Source of the DNA: Polynucleobacter sp. MWH-Loch1C5
GTDB taxonomy: Bacteria; Pseudomonadota; Gammaproteobacteria; Burkholderiales; Burkholderiaceae
Direction of reading: 5' to 3'
Assembly: GCF_018881775.1 (NCBI RefSeq)
Contig: NZ_JACVPR010000001.1
Location: forward strand, 1,444,318-1,508,317
Length of the DNA: 64,000 bases
The notes beneath the pieces were generated by a model. That model was given only the letters and a program-made list of their open reading frames with translations, ran no database searches and was not told where the DNA came from. A program made the position numbers and the translations under genes. Within the stretch, counting starts at the first letter, position 1. Each line of letters opens with the position of its first letter. Shown piece after piece: positions 18,684 to 18,967 of this stretch.

Positions 18684-18699
18684 TGACTTAATTAAGTCA
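18684..18699. promoter_or_regulatory. Perfect 16-bp palindrome upstream of the SOS promoter
   Basis: TGACTTAATTAAGTCA is exactly self-complementary. It lies 11 bp upstream of the -35 of the LexA-box promoter, a typical place for a second regulator. The binding protein is unknown. Confidence 0.5.
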
Positions 18700-18710
18700 C
18701 AGGATAAGTC

Positions 18711-18738
18711 TTGACCTTATTCTTAAATACTGTATATT
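18711..18738 (+). promoter_or_regulatory. Sigma-70 promoter of the SOS micropeptide gene
   Basis: TTGACC (18711-18716), 16-bp spacer, TATATT (18733-18738). The -10 lies wholly inside the LexA box, so LexA binding would block polymerase. The predicted start near 18745 gives a leader of about 42 nt. Confidence 0.7.
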
Positions 18739-18747
18739 TATACAGTA
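18728..18747. promoter_or_regulatory. LexA SOS box
   Basis: TACTGTATATTTATACAGTA contains CTGT-N8-ACAG, the canonical LexA operator of E. coli and of betaproteobacteria. The palindrome extends to 10-bp perfect arms (AATACTGTAT / ATACAGTATT, 18726-18749) around ATTT. It covers the -10 of the micropeptide promoter. Confidence 0.85.
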
Positions 18748-18786
18748 TTGAACCTGTATTTGATTAAGAGCTAATAGGAGTATGTC

Positions 18787-18909
18787 ATGAAAACATTAAT
18801 TGCTAACCCACTATGGTCAGTATTGAGCGGTCTCGTGATTTGGATGGTTTTCGCAGAAAAACCCGGTGAGTGGCAGCGTAAAGAATGGATCTGTTCACGC
18901 CAAGATTAA
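18787..18909 (+). CDS. LexA-controlled 40-residue single-pass membrane peptide
   Basis: A short ORF missed by the ORF track: MKTLIANPLWSVLSGLVIW... , 40 residues, with TAA at 18907-18909. An AGGAG Shine-Dalgarno (18776-18780) sits 6 nt before the ATG. Residues about 8-23 form one hydrophobic helix, followed by a charged, Trp-rich tail (KPGEWQRKEW) with one cysteine (ICSRQD). A LexA box overlaps its promoter, so it should be induced by DNA damage. Topology resembles SOS-induced division inhibitors such as Caulobacter SidA or membrane toxins such as TisB, but I see no sequence match to them. Function is inferred from context only. Confidence 0.75.
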   Translation: MKTLIANPLWSVLSGLVIWMVFAEKPGEWQRKEWICSRQD

Positions 18910-18918
18910 GGCTTCATT

Positions 18919-18967
18919 GATCCCATCCTAAAAACCCACTTCACACTCACTTCTTTGGGATGGGATC
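18919..18967. terminator. Inverted repeat between the micropeptide and CWC genes
   Basis: GATCCCATCC (18919-18928) and GGATGGGATC (18958-18967) are perfect 10-bp arms separated by 29 nt. They straddle the convergent gene ends and are followed by TTT on the plus strand. The loop is long for an intrinsic terminator, so this is a weak call. Confidence 0.35.

Follow-up and report, generated by a model that had tools for sequence, protein, structure and literature searches.

A putative LexA-controlled micropeptide gene of Polynucleobacter, a candidate for a DNA-damage division checkpoint

Introduction

Polynucleobacter species are abundant freshwater bacteria, and arrest of cell division by the SOS response without SulA is known in only a few species. 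A 64-kb window of a 1.65-Mb Polynucleobacter genome (the window being the whole stretch of DNA that was analysed) contains a very short open reading frame next to a LexA-type operator. The original prediction, a reading of the letters of the window, took it for the gene of a DNA-damage-induced membrane peptide, possibly a division inhibitor. Is this frame a gene, does LexA control it, and could its product act on division?

TisB of E. coli, an SOS-induced, hydrophobic membrane toxin of about 30 residues, offers one point of comparison. Small membrane proteins that are induced by SOS and target FtsW/FtsN are well established as a kind (PMC4211646, PMC13396833). SidA of Caulobacter crescentus is an SOS-induced inner-membrane division inhibitor of 29 amino acids that binds FtsW/FtsN (PMC4211646); the single-pass inhibitors YneA of Bacillus, SosA of Staphylococcus and ChiZ of Mycobacterium are induced by SOS or by damage (PMC13396833, PMC6851548) and, as small membrane proteins, interfere with division at a late stage (PMC13396833). 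A search of the open-access PMC subset returned nothing describing the micropeptide gene and nothing on SOS division arrest in Polynucleobacter.

The micropeptide gene and its operator

The locus is a tiny, previously unlisted gene of freshwater Polynucleobacter, the elements of which are collected in Table 1. The 40-codon frame with its AGGAG site is present as originally described, as is the exact CTGT-N8-ACAG LexA box. The placement of the -10 hexamer within the operator was confirmed, and a -35 hexamer at a 16-bp spacing can be added to it; in a promoter scan the pair matched the consensus at 10/12 positions. What had to be corrected is the extent of the palindrome: the 20-mer with perfect 10-bp arms that had been proposed has T/T as its innermost pair, and the true palindrome consists of 11-bp arms around a central TT. 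The layout TTGACA-16-TATATT is legible in most homologues of group A, the clade of the window itself, and a motif scan found a Shine-Dalgarno-like motif 5' of nearly all homologues. The inverted repeat downstream was not listed by our terminator scan, which covered loops of up to 8 only; judged by its sequence, it is a candidate terminator possibly common to the micropeptide gene and the convergent gene downstream. Termination at this point would make the micropeptide gene monocistronic, as it probably is.

Table 1. Sequence elements of the micropeptide locus (positions in the window)
Feature	Position	Strand	Description
Micropeptide gene, 40 codons	18787-18909	+	ATG start; ORF translation MKTLIANPLWSVLSGLVIWMVFAEKPGEWQRKEWICSRQD
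Sigma-70-type promoter	18711-18738	+	-35 TTGACC (18711-18716), 16-bp spacer, -10 TATATT (18733-18738)
Putative LexA (SOS) operator	18726-18749		AATACTGTATA-TT-TATACAGTATT; overlaps the -10 region; assigned by sequence
Operator core	18730-18745		CTGTATATTTATACAG; CTGT-N8-ACAG
Shine-Dalgarno sequence	18776-18780	+	AGGAG; seen in sequence
Inverted repeat, candidate terminator	18919-18928 / 18958-18967		GATCCCATCC / GGATGGGATC, followed by TTT; seen in sequence

The operator core is the sole CTGT-N8-ACAG in the window. One such site per window is not beyond chance (0.8 expected; present in 53/100 shuffles), and since the bare consensus is thus unremarkable in 64 kb, the case needed genome-wide context and conservation. 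The whole genome contains 13 CTGT-N8-ACAG sites, compared with 8 for the reversed control. Eight of them lie within open reading frames, one (L072) is unclassified, with no adjoining long open reading frame in the scan, and four were recognised in promoter position, namely those at lexA, recA, a Y-family DNA polymerase gene and the micropeptide frame. The recA site was flagged as internal only through an upstream GTG that extends the frame; the recA ATG lies ~90 bp downstream of the site. When the core was restricted to A and T (CTGT-W8-ACAG), three sites remained, at the Y-family polymerase gene, recA and the micropeptide frame, against none in the reversed control. A single LexA of the genome passes the curated cut-off (TIGR00498), and lexA is directly preceded by its own box of the same consensus, CTGTATAGAATCACAG. 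The significance of the operator thus derives from the AT-core count together with the preservation of the box in every close relative (see below). SOS control of the micropeptide is well supported on these sequence grounds, and the locus is very probably a real LexA-controlled micropeptide gene.

Selection, distribution and features of the peptide

A test of the substitution pattern for neutrality, which had been proposed for this frame, did not give a neutral result, and the gene stands. Among the 14 genomes of group A, pN/pS was 0.18 and the pairwise differences at the three codon positions were distributed as 382:208:1154, with a synonymous fraction of 0.54 compared with 0.24 under the null (300 simulations, maximum 0.29); these figures, like those for conservation, derive from short alignments. 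On the minus strand of 18787-18909 one antisense frame is free of stops in 14/14 group A homologues, which probably just follows from the constraint on the sense codons.

A single-sequence search detected homologues in 46/186 Polynucleobacter genomes. The profile search raised this number to 49 genomes at E<1e-4, the three weaker additions being referred to as group E, and left 137/186 genomes without a significant homologue. With about three quarters of the genus lacking a significant homologue, the peptide cannot be indispensable. Other genera of the family and order yielded no relatives, and the family is thus genus-restricted at the search sensitivity used; the search of plasmids and viral contigs likewise returned no relatives, so that nothing pointed to a gene of mobile elements or phages. 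The micropeptide matches no Pfam, NCBIfam or PHROG family, and PDB sequences yielded only chance matches to signal peptidase (E 1.7). What emerges, in support of the original prediction, is a betaproteobacterial micropeptide gene that is under selection and keeps its LexA operator; it has no match in the protein-family libraries searched. A public metagenome-assembled genome titled Thermoflexus hugenholtzii also holds a Polynucleobacter micropeptide locus (L161); it is probably a mislabelled or contaminated bin.

The peptide measures 40 residues in the window and 31-40 across the family. Conservation resides mostly in a charged tail rich in Trp, Glu and Cys. W19, F22, E24, G27, E28, E33, W34 and C36 are shared over three clades, R31 is nearly invariant, and position 29 is either W or F. 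By hydropathy, group A has a hydrophobic stretch of 15-20 residues, compared with 8-9 uncharged residues in groups B-D, which are followed there by a GE[WF]xRKEWVC-like tail. AlphaFold places a helix at residues 8-22 and assigns a confidence to the tail that is too low for a fold search. The single hydrophobic membrane helix that had been predicted therefore fits the clade of the window (15-20 residues, helix 8-22) and does not hold elsewhere (8-9 residues), and a transmembrane peptide is plausible in the window's clade only, as far as crude hydropathy sums can tell. With so short an uncharged segment in groups B-D, the peptide may perform its conserved function bound to a surface or to a protein, and not as a pore or a simple transmembrane anchor.

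Conservation of the operator among clades

The LexA box is identical in all 14 genomes of group A, 57-95 bp before the ATG, although the DNA between box and gene and the DNA downstream differ. Group D comprises genomes of 2.3-3.2 Mb, P. kasalickyi among them, with peptides 31-49% identical to that of the window. There, a box lies ~50 bp before the ATG in 14/14 genomes and a second one ~102-117 bp before it in 13/14; CTGT and ACAG are invariant in these boxes while the eight-base core varies. In groups B and C, a scan over 200 bp that tolerated one mismatch gave no LexA box in 17/17 genomes read (L139 is the same genome as L029). The three genomes of group E (L124, L125 and L126, corresponding to G002, G015 and G141) have neither a LexA box nor the palindrome described below. 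The joint conservation of reading frame and LexA box that had been proposed as a check thus holds in groups A and D and fails in groups B, C and E, where the peptide occurs without the box; in the other genera of the family and order no homologues were found for comparison. That groups B and C keep the peptide but lack the box indicates that its function is not only SOS-linked. The group E relative itself is divergent (37 residues, MSKAKECFKSLIVKIIFGENLRQWQCKEWVCTAPKGN), sits in a different neighbourhood and is possibly a remnant or a repurposed copy.

Every group B or C peptide read is preceded, 54-78 bp before its ATG, by a GCTCA-N5-TGAGC palindrome (L017-L032). The arms are lengthened by matching bases in L026 (AAACTACTGGCTCA...TGAGCCAGTAGTTT) and L027 (ACTAGCTCA...TGAGCTAGT), with outer pairs that are not kept in most other genomes. 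We do not favour reading this element as another box of the LexA type or as the operator of a regulon, since it is nearly unique to the peptide locus and LexA and its own box are of the usual type in these genomes; the lengthened arms look more like an RNA hairpin or a terminator.

A LexA site at the division cluster

A look at possible LexA targets where the peptide has no LexA box led to mraZ, the gene with which the dcw cluster begins: a LexA box lies upstream of it in L171, L172 and L173 (box at 1501). Reading of mraZ leaders in 30 genomes located CTGT-N8-ACAG at -230 to -243 from the aligned mraZ start in 16/16 genomes of B, C and N (L184-L199), a minority of that clade, and in 0/14 genomes of clades A and D with one mismatch allowed. 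Clade N has no LexA-boxed peptide; its G002 carries only the weak group E relative. None of these 30 genomes has a LexA site both at the peptide and at the division cluster. The trees of LexA and of the mraZ-neighbourhood proteins agree on three blocks, A, D and B+C+N, within the last of which C is not one clade. This agreement places the changes of the peptide box and of the mraZ box both on one and the same branch, that between B+C+N and all others, on which other genes also changed. The swap is thus one event on the tree, and the 16-against-14 split does not amount to 30 independent observations. E. coli LexA was uninformative as an outgroup (long branch) and, without a root, either state could be ancestral.

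According to Eraso et al. 2014, as cited in PMC8475190, MraZ represses the dcw cluster. In another setting, subtilis LexA bound in vitro to a LexA site that precedes a mraZ homologue (PMC3998124). The latter system resembles clades B, C and N in that a LexA operator heads the division cluster; it differs in resting on gut metagenome data discussed for Gram-positives, whereas here the operator occurs in betaproteobacteria and alternates with a micropeptide. In B, C and N the mraZ leader downstream of the LexA box is well conserved; an SOS-controlled leader RNA or a second promoter may lie in it. A replacement micropeptide encoded in the leader was considered and rejected, as no open reading frame is conserved across the three groups. 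An SOS-dependent rise of MraZ or of a leader RNA would be a plausible route to division control.

We consider it possible, at less than even odds, that the link from SOS to division has been exchanged: two clades would use the LexA-controlled micropeptide, and the third would use a LexA operator in the dcw (mraZ) leader, its peptide being SOS-independent or gone. What the genomes display in this third clade (B+C+N) is a peptide without a LexA box, or one that is absent or unrecognisable. If true, a single checkpoint would be run by a peptide effector in some clades and by direct control of the transcription of the division genes in the other; rewiring of the regulon would then have kept the output (division control) and changed the means.

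Proposed function and alternatives

The best reading of the locus, to which we assign a probability of about 0.5, is a LexA-repressed peptide of the SidA functional type, that is, a DNA-damage division checkpoint formed by a new family and likened to SidA by description. This is the probability that the peptide acts on division. A division checkpoint is argued for by the absence of SulA (PF03846) from 8/8 Polynucleobacter genomes (E. coli control positive), by the exchange with the division-cluster LexA site, and by the precedent of SidA, YneA, SosA and ChiZ; the first two, the LexA site at the mraZ/dcw leader being found exactly in the clade without a peptide box, support the link to division indirectly.

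In the scheme that we infer, which comprises induction by damage, association with the membrane, division arrest and a target, LexA bound over the -10 region would keep the promoter off until DNA damage and RecA trigger its self-cleavage and release the promoter. Derepression would then yield a small peptide made of a short hydrophobic helix followed by the invariant Trp/Glu/Cys tail. During DNA repair this peptide would hold back cell division through contact with a component of the divisome at the inner membrane; by analogy with SidA, one may guess at an FtsW/FtsI/FtsN-like target.

SidA and the micropeptide have in common LexA control, tiny size, one hydrophobic segment (clade A) and a host without SulA. 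They differ in that a conserved Trp/Glu/Cys tail defines the micropeptide family and that its hydrophobic segment is too short in clades B-D; the 8-9-residue stretch outside clade A is unlike the classical single-pass inhibitors in general. YneA, SosA and ChiZ are likewise small, damage-induced membrane proteins, as the micropeptide is presumed to be from its sequence, but they are larger, YneA has an extracellular LysM domain, and their hosts are Gram-positive or actinobacterial. SulA would share the expected role, SOS division arrest; however, the micropeptide matches no Pfam model.

The strongest alternative, which we regard as rather unlikely, is that the peptide regulates some other SOS or stress protein, for instance as the cofactor of a protease, polymerase or transporter or as its inhibitor, and has no role in division, the mraZ box having been acquired separately. 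The invariant Trp/Glu/Cys tail suggests specific protein binding and would suit such a regulator, as would the survival in groups B and C of a peptide that lacks a LexA box, and the reduction of the swap to one event. Against it stands the mutual exclusion of the peptide and division-cluster LexA sites in the 30 genomes read for mraZ.

A membrane-acting toxin of the TisB type, which would depolarise or perturb the membrane, slow metabolism and favour survival without acting on division specifically, is improbable. It shares with the micropeptide the SOS operator, the small size and the hydrophobic helix of clade A, but groups B-D are too short and too charged for a membrane span, and conservation lies mainly in the charged tail, which TisB lacks, and not in a pore-like helix. 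Moreover, the locus has no Rfam match and no antisense promoter above chance (one weak promoter-like site was seen on the minus strand), no antisense RNA was found, and the stretch from operator to Shine-Dalgarno site differs among homologues, unlike the conserved leader of a type I toxin. A small RNA driven by the LexA box, the frame being incidental, is hardly credible, for although a short transcript and a possible downstream terminator would suit it, the pN/pS of 0.18, the third-position bias, the Shine-Dalgarno-like sites and the connection of three clades of dissimilar flanking DNA by one protein profile all speak against it.

For the question of how SOS arrests division without SulA, a genus-confined peptide family with an operator that alternates with that of the division cluster provides a direct, testable entry point.

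Other LexA-type boxes

Further boxes of the LexA type were noticed in other genomes. In G123, CTGTATATTTTAACAG occurs four times (L175 and positions 1111405, 1465899 and 1996806 of G123:C1). The copy examined, L175, sits where an IS605-type TnpB-like gene begins, and by sequence the IS605-type element of this genome may be SOS-responsive. In G013 (L179), a LexA box at 1501-1516 is located 14 bp before an uncharacterised protein of 81 residues (MANLKKYEVGYDRKAENWKLKEQG..., ORF 1530-1775). In G004 (L177), an AT-core LexA box at 1501-1516 stands 129 bp upstream of a 62-residue protein (ORF 1645-1833) that resembles sigma-70 region 4.
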